Below, one piece after another: positions 10,007 to 17,071 of a DNA stretch of 64,000 bases (positions within the stretch are counted from its first letter, which is position 1; each line of letters opens with the position of its first letter). Position numbers and translations under genes: made by a program. The notes under the pieces are model-generated. The model was not told the origin of the DNA and ran no database searches. It saw only the letters and a list, made by a program, of their open reading frames with translations. The DNA is from Streptococcus sp. 1643 (GTDB lineage Bacteria > Bacillota > Bacilli > Lactobacillales > Streptococcaceae), in assembly GCF_006228325.1 (NCBI RefSeq), contig NZ_CP040231.1:1747001-1811000 (forward strand), given 5' to 3'.

Positions 10007-10433
10007 CTATTTCTCTCTTCATGATGATGGCGTCCTCGACTGGGTCATGATAGTAAGCCTTTCGCTCAGCGATGATCGCCATCTTTTCTTTCTTGTAAAA
10101 TGCTTTCGCTCGTTGGTTTGACTTTCTGACTTCGAGGAAAAGCTCCTTATCCGCTGGCAATTGAGCAAACAAGGCTGACGCAATTCCCTGACCCTGATAG
10201 GCTCCTTTGACAGCAATTTGCAGGACTTCTGCCTCAAAGAGATTCTCCTGCACAGCTAGAAAGCCAATCACTTCTGTCCCATCATAAGCCAGAGCGTACC
10301 AAGTCTGGCCTTGGGACAGGTCTGCTTGGATTTGTTCCAGTGTCCAAGGGCTGACTGGGTAAACATCTGCCATGACAGCATAGATAGATTGAGCTAGGTC
10401 AGGCTGTCTTTGGATTCGTTTGATTTCTATCAT
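9996..10433 (-). CDS. rimI: Ribosomal-protein-alanine N-acetyltransferase RimI-like
   Basis: GNAT acetyltransferase of 145 residues. The acetyl-CoA loop is visible as [15 protein letters not shown] (around residues 75-90), followed by [17 protein letters not shown], the typical RimI beta-6 region. It overlaps both tsaB (4 bases) and tsaD (11 bases), an order conserved across Firmicutes. The usual RimI substrate is the N-terminal Ala of S18, but in Gram-positives the target is less certain. Confidence 0.88.
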
Positions 10434-11113
10434 AGGCGTTTAATGTAGGACTCACCAGACTCGGTGTGGTTCTTGAGCCAATTTTCCTCGGCTTCGACAC
10501 GCTTGAGGTAATTTGGTACAAAGTCGTGTAAGGAGTCTGCTCCCTTGTCCCATGCCCACAAAGCTAGATTAGCTGCATTTGGCAAGGTTTTTTGGTAGCT
10601 AGCTTGTGGTAGCTGTTCTTGGATCTGCTCCACAAAGGGACCAACTTCTCCGACAAAGGTCACCTGTTCAGCATCCTTGACTTTTTCTAGCACTTCCGCA
10701 AAGGACAAGTGTGCTTCTGGCATGACAGGTTTGGCATTTTCATAAAATCCTGCATAAACATTGTTGCGACGCGCATCCATCAAAGTAACAAGTAAGCCTT
10801 CTTGTTGGCGTGGCACCAGAGCCAAGAGGCTAGACATACCAACCAACTCAATGTTCAGGGTATGAGCCAAGGTCTTGGCAGTTGCTACCGCAATTCGCAA
10901 ACCTGTGTAGCTACCTGGCCCTTCAGCGACCACGATTCGATCCAAATCCTTAGGTGTCCAATCCAAACTGGCCATCAAAAAATCAATGGCAGGCATAAGG
11001 GTAATACTGTGATTCTTCTTAATATTAATCGTCGTCTCGGCAAGAACCTGCTTGTCCTCTAAAATAGCGAGAGAAAGAGCCTTGCTGGACGTATCAAAAG
11101 CTAATACTTTCAT
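10430..11113 (-). CDS. tsaB: tRNA threonylcarbamoyladenosine biosynthesis protein TsaB
   Basis: Non-catalytic partner that forms a heterodimer with TsaD in t6A37 synthesis. 227 residues with the truncated ASKHA fold: LAFDTSSKALSLAIL at the start and VVAEGPGSYTGLRIAVATAK near residue 65, the motif that defines TsaB. First gene of tsaB-rimI-tsaD. A TATAAT (11144-11149) about 30 bases upstream is the likely -10. Confidence 0.95.
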   Translation of the reverse strand: MKVLAFDTSSKALSLAILEDKQVLAETTINIKKNHSITLMPAIDFLMASLDWTPKDLDRIVVAEGPGSYTGLRIAVATAKTLAHTLNIELVGMSSLLALVPRQQEGLLVTLMDARRNNVYAGFYENAKPVMPEAHLSFAEVLEKVKDAEQVTFVGEVGPFVEQIQEQLPQASYQKTLPNAANLALWAWDKGADSLHDFVPNYLKRVEAEENWLKNHTESGESYIKRL

Positions 11114-11198
11114 AACACATTCCTATCTTTTTGTCTGCTTACTATTATACTACAAAAGCTGACGCATGGGAATTTTCTTTGTTTCCAAACAAAAAGGC

Positions 11199-11318
11199 CT
11201 ACCACTTAGACAAAAAGAAGTGTAAATAAGTCATATATTCCTTAACTCGATTGTCGACGTTAGAAATCATCGTCATAACAATAAAGATAGCACCTAAAAA
11301 TAGAAAAATCCATCCCAT
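11199..11318 (-). CDS. Possible 39-residue membrane peptide
   Basis: A short frame starting at ATG 11318 encodes one strongly hydrophobic helix (WIFLFLGAIFIVMTMI) and a basic/aromatic tail ending FFLSKW. It has no clear ribosome site, and its start lies inside the hairpin that appears to end the gene at 11365. It could be a real small membrane protein, or only the remains of one. Confidence 0.25.
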   Translation of the reverse strand: MGWIFLFLGAIFIVMTMISNVDNRVKEYMTYLHFFLSKW

Positions 11319-11339
11319 CTAAAGACGAGGTGGATTTTC
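11303..11339 (-). terminator. Terminator downstream of the 71-residue membrane protein
   Basis: AAAATCCA pairs with TGGATTTTT on the minus strand just after the stop at 11365. Confidence 0.6.
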
Positions 11340-11364
11340 TGTATATCTAGAGGAATAATTGACT

Positions 11365-11580
11365 TTAGGCATTTAAACCAAAGTAGAAAACGAGCCAGAC
11401 AACATAGGTGACCAGGAGGAGAAAAATTGAATAGAGCGTCACAAAAGCAAGCTTCCAAAGGAACTTTGTTTTGCGGTGTTCCAGATGCACAAACAGGGCA
11501 TTCCCCCCATAGACACAAGCTACAAAGACTACAAACATCAAGAGGCGAACCCCTACTGCAAATTCAAACAAACTAAACAT
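11365..11580 (-). CDS. Small two-helix membrane protein, unknown function
   Basis: 71 residues from ATG 11580, chosen because AAAGGAGGA lies 6 bases upstream; the open frame extends to 11628 without a site. Two hydrophobic helices (around residues 8-28 and 42-66) are separated by a short charged loop (HLEHRKTKF). I do not recognise the family. It lies alone between tsaB and the small-RNA region and diverges from the first RNA unit. Confidence 0.65.
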   Translation of the reverse strand: MFSLFEFAVGVRLLMFVVFVACVYGGNALFVHLEHRKTKFLWKLAFVTLYSIFLLLVTYVVWLVFYFGLNA

Positions 11581-11621
11581 TCTTAATCCTCCTTTTGGTA
11601 TTGCTATTTTTATATAAACTG

Positions 11622-11651
11622 TTGACAATGTTGGTCTATCAATGTTAAAAT
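11622..11651 (+). promoter_or_regulatory. Promoter of small-RNA unit 1
   Basis: A perfect -35 TTGACA (11622-11627) is followed after 18 bases by TAAAAT (11646-11651). No ribosome site or open frame follows, so it most likely drives a non-coding RNA. Confidence 0.65.
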
Positions 11652-11657
11652 GTAATT

Positions 11658-11805
11658 CAACATTGGTAGGAAAATCAGGTTGAGTTGTTTACTCTTCGGG
11701 TTGCAGTGCTATCCCTGAAACTTTGGTTTCTAAAGAACTGAAATTGCGATTGAACAATTCGCCCCCAGTGTTTGACGGCTCTTGACTTCGGTCAGGAGCT
11801 TTTTG
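11658..11805 (+). ncRNA. Putative small RNA, unit 1
   Basis: About 148 bases between a good promoter and a strong terminator hairpin (GGCTCTTGAC-TTCG-GTCAGGAGC followed by T5, 11777-11804). No start codon with a ribosome site or sensible frame is present. It shares TTCGGG loops and a G/C-rich centre with units 2 and 3, but I cannot align it with them well. Family not recognised. The 5' end is an estimate from the promoter. Confidence 0.5.
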
Positions 11806-11853
11806 ATGCTTTTAAAGTTGATTCCCTCAGTAAGTTATAGTAAAGTATAAATA

Positions 11854-11978
11854 TCGAGAGGATAACATAGGGCGACTGGTGACAGAGCGTTCAAAGGTAC
11901 TTGTTTCAAGTACGGGTGAGGTGCTACTTTCAGCTTCGGGCTGTAAAGAACCCTTGAGCAGATACGTCCTCTTTTTTT
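11854..11978 (+). ncRNA. Putative structured small RNA, unit 2
   Basis: About 125 bases. A promoter TTGATT-N17-TAAAGT (11818-11846) ends 7 bases before the estimated start. The 5' end (GAGGA) pairs with the 3' end (TCCTC), which runs straight into T7, so the closing stem doubles as the terminator. Inside are a GTACTTG/CAAGTAC hairpin and a CAGC-TTCG-GGCTG hairpin. Two blocks, TGGTGACA...TTCAAAGGT and GAGGTGCTAC, are shared with unit 3. I know of no riboswitch or sRNA family with these blocks. Confidence 0.6.
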
Positions 11979-12065
11979 GCTTACTCTTAAATTAAGGACT
12001 TTCCCTTGCCTGTTCAGTAAGCACTCCACTCCATCTTGCTATTTCTACATCGTTATACTTATAGA

Positions 12066-12095
12066 TTGACTTCTTAGCCTCATAGATGATAGAAT
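12066..12095 (+). promoter_or_regulatory. Promoter of small-RNA unit 3
   Basis: TTGACT (12066-12071), an 18-base spacer and TAGAAT (12090-12095). The predicted start falls 7-9 bases later, exactly where the closing stem of unit 3 begins. Confidence 0.65.
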
Positions 12096-12103
12096 TAAGT
12101 AAA

Positions 12104-12228
12104 AGCTGAGATCGAGTTTGATTTGGTGACAAGTCATTCAAAGGTTGCGATGCATTCGCTTCAGGCAGAGGTGCTACCATCTGGACTGCCCCAGGAAAAT
12201 CCCCGAGTTTTGTCTCAGCCTTTTTATT
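12104..12228 (+). ncRNA. Putative structured small RNA, unit 3 (paralogue of unit 2)
   Basis: About 125 bases, the same length as unit 2. The 5' GCTGAGA pairs with 3' TCTCAGC, followed by CTTTTTATTT. Internal hairpins are GCGA-TGCA-TTCGC and CTGG/CCAG. The blocks TGGTGACA, TTCAAAGGT and GAGGTGCTAC occur in the same order and at nearly the same spacing as in unit 2, while the hairpin sequences between them differ. That pattern of conserved unpaired blocks with covarying stems suggests a real RNA family. The antisense frame here is not convincing as protein. Confidence 0.6.
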
Positions 12229-12346
12229 TGCTCTTGAGATTTCTCAAGAGTTTTTCTTTTTTCAAAGGTATCATTCTGTCCCAGCCATCTACACCAACGA
12301 TTAATGAAACTAAAACTGTATTCTTCCTTAAATCTACTATCTCCAT
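12224..12346 (-). CDS. Possible 40-residue peptide opposite the RNA terminator
   Basis: ATG 12346 has AAAGGGGG 5 bases upstream, and a good promoter (TTGGTC-N17-TATAAT, 12361-12389) precedes it. The product begins MEIVDLRKNTVLVSL, with no helix long enough to be a sure membrane segment, and ends in basic residues. Its 3' part is the antisense of the terminator at 12231-12260. It may be a real small protein, an antisense transcript to the small RNA, or chance. Confidence 0.3.
   Translation of the reverse strand: MEIVDLRKNTVLVSLIVGVDGWDRMIPLKKEKLLRNLKSK
12231..12260 (+). terminator. Second terminator after small-RNA unit 3
   Basis: CTCTTGAGA pairs perfectly with TCTCAAGAG across a 2-base loop and is followed by T5. 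It lies only a few bases after unit 3's own terminator and would block read-through toward rpoY. Confidence 0.8.
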
Positions 12347-12360
12347 AGATTCCCCCTTTA

Positions 12361-12389
12361 ATTATAACACCTAAGCGCTCTCCGACCAA
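12361..12389 (-). promoter_or_regulatory. Minus-strand promoter TTGGTC-N17-TATAAT
   Basis: A perfect -10 with a near-consensus -35 at the optimal 17-base spacing, reading toward the small-RNA units. The only candidate product is the 40-residue frame ending at 12224. Confidence 0.5.
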
Positions 12390-12463
12390 ATCCTACCTGT
12401 CTTTTTGCTCCTTCTTACCCTCCCTACTTTCTCCATTTCCGTCTTTTACTAATTTTTCATTTT

Positions 12464-12473
12464 GTGGTATAAT
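12464..12473 (+). promoter_or_regulatory. Promoter of rpoY-rnjA
   Basis: Extended -10 with TATAAT at 12468-12473 preceded by a TG dinucleotide. The -35 (TTTACT) is weak, as is common with extended -10 promoters. The leader to the rpoY start is about 100 bases, with no clear structure seen. Confidence 0.65.
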
Positions 12474-12583
12474 TGAAATAATTGTAACGAATCAAGGTCA
12501 ATCTAGACACAAAATGGAATGAAATCAAGCAAATCTCTGCTAAAAGTTTGGAATAAGCTGACCTGTAAATAGAAAGGAACTAT

Positions 12584-12817
12584 ATGATTTACAAAGTTTT
12601 TTATCAAGAAACAAAAGAACGTAGCCCACGTCGTGAAACAACACGCTCACTTTACCTAGACATCGATGCCAACTCAGAACTTGAGGGACGTATCGCTGCT
12701 CGCCAACTTGTCGAAGAAAACCGCCCAGAGTACAACATCGAATTCATCGAACTCTTGTCTGACAAATTGCTAGATTACGAAAAAGAAACTGGCGCTTTCG
12801 AGATTACGGAGTTCTAA
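12584..12817 (+). CDS. rpoY: RNA polymerase epsilon subunit RpoY
   Basis: Small accessory subunit (77 residues, DUF1447) of Firmicutes RNA polymerase, acidic toward its C terminus. The start follows AGAAAGGAACT. It is separated from rnjA by a single base, an arrangement conserved across Firmicutes and the main support for the name along with length and sequence. It binds near the downstream DNA channel and may help protect the polymerase. Confidence 0.93.
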
Positions 12818-12818
12818 T

Positions 12819-14498
12819 ATGGCCTACACTCTTAAACCTGAAGAAGTCGGCGTTTTTGCCATCGGTGGTCTGGGAGAAATCGGGAAAAACACTTACGGAA
12901 TTGAATACCAAGATGAGATTATCATCGTCGATGCTGGGATTAAATTCCCAGAAGATGACTTGCTGGGTATCGACTATGTCATTCCTGATTACTCTTACAT
13001 CGTAGACAATATCGACCGTGTCAAGGCTGTTTTGATCACACACGGACACGAGGACCACATTGGTGGAATTCCTTTCCTGCTCAAGCAAGCAAATGTCCCT
13101 ATCTACGCTGGACCACTTGCCTTGGCTTTGATCCGTGGAAAACTCGAAGAACACGGTCTCTTGCGCAACGCCAAACTTTACGAAATCAACCACAATACTG
13201 AGTTGACCTTTAAAAATCTCAAGGCAACTTTCTTTAGAACCACCCACTCCATTCCAGAGCCTTTGGGGATTGTCATTCATACTCCTCAAGGTAAAATCGT
13301 CTGTACGGGTGACTTTAAGTTTGACTTTACTCCAGTTGGGGAACCAGCGGACTTGCACCGTATGGCAGCCCTTGGTGAAGAAGGCGTACTCTGCCTCCTC
13401 TCTGACTCGACAAATGCAGAAGTTCCAACCTTTACCAACTCTGAAAAAGTCGTTGGTCAGTCCATCATGAAGATTATCCAAGGCATCGAAGGACGTATCA
13501 TCTTTGCATCCTTTGCCTCAAATATCTTCCGTCTCCAGCAAGCAACGGATGCTGCAGTTAAGACTGGACGCAAGATTGCGGTCTTTGGACGTTCTATGGA
13601 AAAGGCCATTGTCAACGGTATCGAGCTTGGCTACATCAAAGCTCCTAAGGGAACTTTTATCGAGCCAAATGAAATCAAAGACTACCCTGCAGGCGAGGTT
13701 CTGATCCTCTGTACAGGTAGTCAAGGCGAGCCGATGGCTGCCCTCTCTCGTATCGCTAACGGAACCCACCGTCAGGTGCAACTTCAACCCGGCGATACCG
13801 TTATCTTCTCTTCAAGTCCTATCCCTGGAAATACCACTAGCGTCAACAAGCTGATTAACATTATCTCAGAAGCTGGTGTCGAAGTCATTCACGGAAAGAT
13901 TAACAATATCCACACCTCTGGACACGGTGGTCAGCAAGAGCAAAAACTCATGCTTCGTTTGATCAAGCCCAAATACTTCATGCCTGTTCACGGTGAATAT
14001 CGTATGCAGAAAGTCCACGCTGGACTAGCGGTGGATACGGGTGTCGAGAAGGACAATATCTTTATCATGAGCAATGGTGATGTGCTTGCCCTTACTGCTA
14101 ACTCAGCCCGTATCGCAGGGCACTTCAATGCCCAAGACATCTATGTTGATGGAAATCGTATCGGTGAAATCGGTGCGGCTGTCCTCAAAGACCGCAGAGA
14201 TCTATCTGAAGATGGTGTCGTTCTAGCAGTCGCAACTGTTGACTTTAAGTCGCAGATGATTCTATCTGGTCCAGATATCCTCAGCCGAGGCTTTGTCTAC
14301 ATGAGGGAATCTGGCGACTTGATTCGCCAAAGCCAACGTATCCTCTTCAATGCTATTCGTATCGCACTGAAGAACAAAGATGCTAGCGTGCAATCTGTCA
14401 ATGGTGCTATTGTCAACGCCATTCGCCCCTTTCTCTATGAAAATACGGAACGTGAGCCGATTATCATCCCGATGATCCTCACACCAGATGAAGAATAA
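12819..14498 (+). CDS. rnjA: Ribonuclease J1
   Basis: Metallo-beta-lactamase/beta-CASP nuclease of 559 residues with endo- and 5'-3' exonuclease activity, central to mRNA decay and rRNA maturation. The zinc motif is [11 protein letters not shown] (around residues 72-82); further ligands are in TTHSIPEP and GDFKFD; the beta-CASP motifs include DSTNAE and the [12 protein letters not shown] segment. Coupled to rpoY by a 1-base gap. Its stop TAA is also the first triplet of a BOX-end sequence. Confidence 0.97.
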
Positions 14499-16923: not shown

Positions 16924-17071
16924 TTTTTTCCTTTCCCTTAAACGACACAAAAACAGTCAAAACTCCAAAGAAGTGCAGGACAAAAAGCCTGCAACATCCA
17001 TGAGCTTTGACCATCATTTCTATTGCTGTTATTATTGTAGCAAATTGAGAAAATTTGTCAATCTAAATGTA

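Follow-up and report, generated by a model that had tools for sequence, protein, structure and literature searches.

What is encoded between tsaB and rpoY in Streptococcus sp. 1643? In the window that we analyzed (64,000 nt; contig NZ_CP040231.1, positions 1,747,001–1,811,000), an initial annotation based on the letters alone saw no convincing protein gene at this spot. It proposed three promoter-to-terminator units on the forward strand, of which units 2 and 3 would belong to an RNA family whose unpaired blocks are conserved while its stems change. Here we extend this description: unit 1 is also a family member, and relatives of the units lie antisense within a mobile-element gene, are linked to the PBECR4 domain, and occur on plasmids.

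Three predicted RNA genes between tsaB and rpoY

The array is followed by rpoY and, from 12819, directly after it, by a gene that we take to be rnjA (Table 1). Frames on the opposite strand that cover at least 80% of a unit span at most 38, 67, and 83 codons from stop to stop (units 1–3); the region is partly overlapped by other short frames. Units 1 and 3 have promoter-like and terminator-like sites, and unit 2 has a weak promoter-like site and ends in its closing stem and a T-run. The promoter scan alone proves little, because it found seven sites in 10800–13000 on both strands against 4.1 expected from shuffles. Units 2 and 3 do share three blocks in the order first described: TGGTGACA (at 11877 and 12124), TTCAAAGGT (11890 and 12137), and GAGGTGCTAC (11918 and 12168). 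The middle pair of P4 in unit 3 is a C-A mismatch.

Folding-energy z-scores were −2.29, −0.45, and −1.95 for units 1–3. We rejected single-sequence folding as proof of RNAs, as unit 2 folds no better than shuffles; folding energy alone is ambiguous, and it is the comparative data presented below that establish the RNAs.

Two further features were observed nearby. An 87-aa frame with the look of a small membrane protein (11365–11628, reverse strand) lies 5′ of unit 1 and runs into the unit 1 promoter; its protein recurs in several other arrays, as an in-frame fusion to the unit 1 region. The single Rfam match in the window above a gathering cutoff lies elsewhere, at 16960–17025 on the reverse strand, and is to a known streptococcal sRNA, Spd-sr37 (RF02419).

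Table 1. Features of the RNA array, in positions of the 64,000-nt window
Feature	Position	Strand	Basis or remark
tsaB	10430–11113	−	left flank of array loci; name from the initial annotation
Unit 1 promoter-like site, TTGACA-18-TAAAAT	11622–11651	+	11/12, promoter scan
Unit 1, type T1 RNA	11658–11806	+	match to model R3; covariation in A6
Unit 1 stems	P1 11659–11666/11765–11772; P3 11682–11694; P4 11698–11714; P5 11717–11730; P6 11746–11762	+	
Unit 1 pseudoknot	CAGU 11704–11707 with ACUG 11737–11740	+	
Unit 1 terminator-like hairpin and T	11777–11804	+	
Unit 2 weak promoter-like site, TTGATT-17-TAAAGT	11818–11846	+	8/12, under the limit of the scan
Unit 2, type T2 RNA	11856–11978	+	match to model R1; covariation in A4
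Unit 2 stems	P1 11856–11863/11966–11973; P2 (GUGA loop) 11870–11892; P3 11897–11913; P4 11915–11928; P5 11931–11943	+	
Unit 2 pseudoknot	loop GGU 11920–11922 with tail ACC 11950–11952	+	
Unit 2 3′ end		+	closing stem into T-run
Unit 2 3′ half, swapped allele	11898–11965	+	array comparison
Unit 3 promoter-like site, TTGACT-18-TAGAAT	12066–12095	+	10/12, promoter scan
Unit 3, type T3 RNA	12102–12255	+	match to model R2; covariation in A5
Unit 3 stems	P1 12102–12111/12213–12222; P2 (GUGA loop) 12120–12135; P3 12147–12159; P4 12164–12178; P5 12181–12194	+	
Unit 3 proposed pseudoknot	GGU 12170–12172 with AUC 12199–12201	+	
Unit 3 second, terminator-like hairpin and T	12230–12255	+	
rpoY	12584–12817	+	right flank, 77 aa; name from the initial annotation

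A widespread RNA family

Rfam 15 had no family above its gathering cutoff in the array region; at E-values up to 5, two chance matches appeared there, both to eukaryotic families (E = 0.3 and 0.86) and far under the cutoffs. DNA searches matched unit 2 in 13 of 58 Streptococcus genomes and units 3 and 1 in 17 of 118 each, a few matches being weak or due to chance. Two weak ones (L030 and L031) look like chance matches in unrelated genes. Covariance models (E ≤ 0.001) recognized type T2 (model R1) in at least 89, type T3 (R2) in at least 50, and type T1 (R3) in at least 42 of 284 Streptococcus genomes, counts that are lower bounds because the models scored the best 11–12 candidates per genome. 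Merged, the matches make up at least 164 loci and at least 200 sites in at least 113 of the 284 genomes. These homologs, and the covariation among them, bear out the RNA family initially proposed for units 2 and 3.

Model R1 also picks up many T3 copies, mostly with E-values of 1e-7 to 1e-4, and T2 and T3 are therefore related in sequence. T1 differs in sequence but has hairpins P4 and P5 and the loop-tail pseudoknot, as they do, and unit 1 is a family member as well. We group T1, T2, and T3 as one new family, having found in all three a common fold core with covariation and a loop-tail pseudoknot. By this comparison, the three units of the window are predicted structured RNA genes of one architecture, made of a closing stem, hairpins, and the pseudoknot.

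Across the order, R3 matched five of 276 genomes, all of them Streptococcus, and R1 matched 10 of 276, with one non-Streptococcus genome. One T2-type unit (L372, genome G422) was seen in a genome from another family of the order; its loop GAU and tail AUC, read by eye, represent a further kind of pseudoknot pairing. A scan of named genomes used too loose a pattern, with nine of the 80 loci listed coming from Streptococcus, and the array had no match in phage records. Among the matches listed in searches of the open-licence literature, we recognized no earlier report of the RNA family, and among those listed in one of these searches the term “PBECR4” occurred 0 times. To judge from these searches, the family is undescribed; its parts resemble RNA antitoxins, antisense RNAs, and orphan immunity genes, and their combination is new as far as could be seen.

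Covariation supports the fold and a pseudoknot

Alignments fitted with the covariance models comprised 90 T2 copies (A4; 76 distinct), 51 T3 copies (A5; 47 distinct), and 52 T1 copies (A6; 45 distinct). The fraction of paired cells was 95.1%, 98.2%, and 94.3% in A4, A5, and A6, respectively, and double-change cells numbered 284, 136, and 156, against 87.8, 34.8, and 40.6 in shuffles; none of 500 shuffles reached any of these six values. For A6, a further measure, of pair types, was equaled by two of 500 shuffles. As a control, slid structures were 33%–50% paired. Alignments fitted by covariance models lean to their own structure, and MAFFT alignments give the same kinds of change. The covariation that the initial annotation proposed to look for is strong.

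The pseudoknot joins the P4 loop to the tail after P5 and covaries though it is absent from the models. One pair in T2 takes several forms (G-C 35, U-A 22, C-G 10, unpaired 9), and two pairs vary in T1 (G-C/G-U/A-U and G-C/A-U; G-C 33, A-U 12). The three pairs in T3 are invariant and therefore neither support nor oppose the pseudoknot. On the RNA strand as read here, G·U accounts for 6%–15% of pair cells and A·C for 1.1%–1.4%; this commonness of G·U and rarity of A·C make it the likelier functional strand.

Half of the sites lie opposite a polyvalent-protein gene

At 100 of the 200 sites found, the RNA faces an open frame of at least 250 codons on the other strand. This limit is arbitrary; opposing frames at the remaining sites reach 168 codons. 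We refer to the 100 sites with a long opposing frame as element copies and to the other 100, which are not encoded opposite such a gene, as orphans. Pfam found PBECR4 in all four opposing proteins scanned and, among them, also Toprim_2, LPD25, ArdcN, DUF3991, and TSP3. In element copies, the RNA gene runs antisense to this toprim/PBECR4 polyvalent-protein gene, inside the linker that immediately precedes PBECR4. The opposing genes presumably belong to conjugative elements, judging from their Pfam domains and from the relaxase, mobilization, topB, and TraG genes that flank two copies on plasmids.

Sites that could start and end transcription accompany most copies. A promoter-like site of at least 9/12 was found for 80 of 100 copies in elements and for 66 of 93 orphans (7%–16% in simple shuffles), and upstream of T1 copies in 25 of 26 element copies and 22 of 26 orphans. 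A hairpin followed by T was present in 99 of 100 element copies and 68 of 93 orphans, as raw counts without a control. One locus (L271; G136:C230) has three RNA units (T3, T1, T3) opposite a single element gene of 2062 codons.

RNA type follows the PBECR4 domain

The Pfam model of PBECR4 (PF18813) matched 115 of the 284 Streptococcus genomes, and a search with it gave no match in the genome of the window. Among the matches listed, 98 of 99 typed PBECR4 matches in long frames (at least 300 codons) had an RNA within 500 nt, compared with none of 33 typed stand-alone matches, a typing that leaves out 17 weaker stand-alone matches and unlisted ones. Our own profile placed PBECR4 in 98 of 98 element loci, a figure with some circularity, as 90 of those proteins went into the profile; our conclusions rest on Pfam's own model.

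We compared RNA type with protein phylogeny in 87 of 97 element proteins (those in which both domains were found, with locus L271 and its three sites excluded). RNA type changed three times on the PBECR4 tree (shuffled mean 39.9) and 26 times on the toprim tree (shuffled mean 39.2). On a tree of the 200 aa after PBECR4, it changed 25 times (84 proteins; shuffled mean 38.1), and among the 31 proteins with a toprim gap below 160 aa, it changed three times for PBECR4 versus eight for toprim. Since RNA type tracks the PBECR4 tree and not the toprim tree, RNA and PBECR4 behave as a single module that is exchanged.

PBECR4 is a predicted RNase domain. Excerpts of the study that described PBECR domains (PMC5512222) predict that these are RNases, most of them bearing a His and a C-terminal Ser or Thr, and propose RNA targets of host or defense origin. 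The genes opposite our element copies are of the same kind as the polyvalent proteins reported there, although those excerpts mention “small RNA” and “RNA antitoxin” 0 times. In 90 PBECR4 proteins, the His of the HLTG motif never varies and a Ser further along is conserved in 91%, counts that are biased because the proteins were chosen by a motif fixing the Gly of HLTG and allowing His or Phe; the His is also invariant in five proteins picked by profile. Conserved His and Ser fit the active site as given in the excerpts of PMC5512222. A structure model of PBECR4 was poor (mean pLDDT of 56.9).

Orphan copies in chromosomes and on plasmids

Orphans occur alone or in tandem, and a PBECR4 remnant was not found in the flanking stretch examined for 63 of 66 orphan loci. 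Several settings recur. Fifteen tsaB–rnjA loci have one to several units each. Other orphans adjoin RelB-type antitoxin genes (two tested, both just above the Pfam cutoff; others of similar sequence) or ParE-type toxin genes (two above the cutoff, one just under). Further ones share a small plasmid or contig with Mob_Pre, Rep_OBD, or Rep3_N genes, or lie next to a NikA/MobC-like gene or elsewhere.

Type II toxin–antitoxin genes (RelB, ParE) flank many orphans (e.g., L096, L240, L282, L085, L295). Six loci beside RelB-like genes (L219, L225, L226, L267, L282, L358) have, as judged by eye, head-to-tail fusions of T3 and T2, between which no promoter or terminator was seen. Proteins with a YYFHHDLSKKD motif near the N-terminus and no Pfam match (L282:4378–4866, L228:4388–4924) recur beside T3 orphans.

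The rolling-circle plasmid pMV158 (L361) has a T2-type unit in its replication region (nt 240–366, E = 1.4e-17), over which the PLSDB gene table, itself incomplete, has no feature. The RNA is also found on the named plasmids pDRPIS7493 and pSRD478; in the latter, a T2 unit is directly followed by another match to R1 (E = 3e-7), which resembles T3. A BLAST search with the pMV158 copy matched 18 plasmid records, five of them over at least 80%. Unit 1 matched a Streptococcus parasuis plasmid (94%), within a long gene without assigned function that adjoins topB, and two Lactococcus plasmids (71%–73%), in one of which a PBECR4 gene and a toprim gene flank the match.

Orphan copies appear to be under selection

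Orphans of the three types have 92%, 97%, and 92% of their nested cells paired, and in alignments of orphans alone, 10 of 34, four of 29, and nine of 30 pairs exceed the 99th background percentile, where ∼0.3 would be expected. Relative to the nearest element copy, 168 changed pairs were doubly compensated, 141 were kept by a change on one side, and 81 were broken. Divergence in stems and loops was 14.6% and 15.2% for T2, 15.1% and 14.5% for T3, and 8.6% and 11.5% for T1. These comparisons argue that orphan copies are under selection.

Among 12 arrays, mean divergence was 3.6% and 4.7% for the 5′ and 3′ halves of unit 1, 3.2% for the 5′ half of unit 2, and 11.3% for the 5′ spacer; nonaligning rows influence the remaining figures of this comparison. 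An apparent faster evolution of the RNA bodies was dropped, as it came partly from nonaligning rows (L305, L294) and the swapped allele of the window. Arrays resemble one another far more closely in the 5′ half of unit 2 than in the 3′ half, where 24 of 68 positions separate the copy in the window from the allele in L082, L227, and L302 and the pseudoknot is kept; we read this as an allele swap. In two tsaB–rnjA arrays (L302 and L305), a T1 unit is still joined to an N-terminal piece of PBECR4, an arrangement that looks like a trace of capture.

A candidate RNA antidote

What might the RNA do? Our best guess is that it is an antidote to, or a regulator of, the PBECR4 module. The reading that we favor, with a probability of roughly 0.42, is a trans-acting antidote. 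The units would be transcribed as short folded RNAs with a pseudoknot. Acting in trans, these would most likely bind the RNase domain of the PBECR4 module and so neutralize it in both donor and recipient. Orphans in chromosomes and on small plasmids would protect hosts or hitchhiking plasmids against PBECR4-carrying elements, and the array in the window would comprise one antidote of each of the three types. Polymorphic toxin systems have orphan immunity genes, free antidote copies without a toxin that form small arrays; by analogy, orphan RNAs would be antidote copies free of the toxin and in arrays, the difference being that the candidate antidote here is an RNA.

Type III toxin–antitoxin systems (ToxIN, CptIN, TenpIN) likewise have a pseudoknotted RNA beside an RNase, here a predicted RNase domain, and tandem copies occur. 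Their defining layout is a tandem short-repeat RNA upstream of a ToxN-fold toxin gene and on the same strand, whereas the family RNA is antisense inside the gene, ∼120 nt long, and not built of short repeats. The domain also differs, being PBECR4, and Pfam scans of four proteins gave no ToxN-type domain.

Several results count against an antidote. Joint exchange of RNA and PBECR4 would also be expected from their mere closeness, stand-alone PBECR4 genes do without the RNA, and orphans have long matches to element copies. Moreover, a test for same-type exclusion was negative: in the 20 genomes with both orphan and element copies, 13 same-type overlaps were seen versus 14.3 expected (P = 0.34). 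A second permutation, run on all 113 genomes, gave P = 0.0003; it conditions on at least one copy per genome and hence was not used.

The long matches raise a second, somewhat unlikely possibility, that the element RNA pairs as an antisense silencer with the mRNA of the polyvalent protein and limits its expression or stability, in the manner of antisense RNAs that set plasmid copy number, with orphans silencing matching incoming elements. The RNA is encoded opposite the gene at 100 of the 200 sites and away from it at the other 100, and perfect matches between orphan and element copies of the same type have medians of 40 nt (T2), 29 nt (T3), and 39 nt (T1), those of the window units reaching 46, 38, and 48 nt. 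Type I antitoxins and plasmid antisense RNAs (e.g., RNAII of pMV158) resemble the family in being small RNAs opposite a mobile-element gene, with promoter- and terminator-like sites. Here, however, compensatory changes conserve the fold in copies far from the gene, and the types, though unlike in sequence, have one fold core and conserved unpaired blocks in common. Orphan stems diverge about as much as loops in T2 and T3 (less in T1), most changed pairs stay paired, so that structure is kept and complementarity lost, and 14 of 93 orphans lack any match of at least 20 nt. We favor the antidote over silencing on the ground that the copies have retained structure and unpaired blocks but lost part of their complementarity.

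The RNA could also be a cofactor or primer for the transferred replication protein with its toprim domain, adopted by small plasmids that ride the transfer machinery of the element. Some orphans do share a small plasmid or contig with MobV relaxase or Rep genes, and one tested orphan adjoins a NikA/MobC-like gene. Yet RNA type tracks PBECR4 and not toprim, and the nearest genes of at least 90 aa beside tsaB–rnjA arrays are not mobilization genes, making this role improbable.

The position of the pMV158 unit, ∼90 nt from a CS-6-like TAGCGT at nt 149, suggests a folded single-strand DNA element such as an sso, acting as DNA and not as RNA. CS-6 occurs as TAGCGT as well as TAGCGA. The TAGCGA form appears in an excerpt of PMC6395029, and according to part of PMC5703833, sso elements fold and recruit RNA polymerase. 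Single-strand origins (ssoA, ssoU) would share with the family a strand-specific fold on rolling-circle plasmids. Unlike them, the window has no CS-6 motif (TAGCGA/T) on either strand of 11501–12400, most copies are bracketed by promoter- and terminator-like sites, G·U is common and A·C rare on the RNA strand, and orphans persist in arrays and at other chromosomal sites without adjoining replication genes. An sso-like DNA role is therefore unlikely, and we would give it very little weight.

Least probable of all is that the copies are functionless relics of inserted elements, for although the protein part has decayed in arrays with element fragments (L302, L305) and a few orphans score weakly, orphans keep their structure by compensatory change, and unit 1 diverges far less than the 5′ spacer of the arrays.

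Implications for streptococcal gene transfer

It is unusual for the two strands of a single stretch of DNA to hold an open frame and a covarying RNA, respectively, as they do where this structured RNA gene is nested antisense in the linker of an effector-bearing gene. The family is also widespread, occurring in more than a third of the Streptococcus genomes searched and on a much-studied plasmid, pMV158.

The PBECR4 pieces attached to units in L302 and L305, and the swapped 3′ half of unit 2 in the window, hint that the tsaB–rnjA locus might be an RNA immunity array, in which recombination gathered antidote or silencer units, one for each PBECR4 type. We regard this as a doubtful, speculative reading; if it were true, the array would be a heritable record of past elements kept without Cas-like proteins. 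If the RNAs are antidotes or silencers, the polyvalent-protein domain PBECR4 would gain a testable partner, and streptococci would have in them a simple means, based on RNA, to block or to license horizontal transfer.
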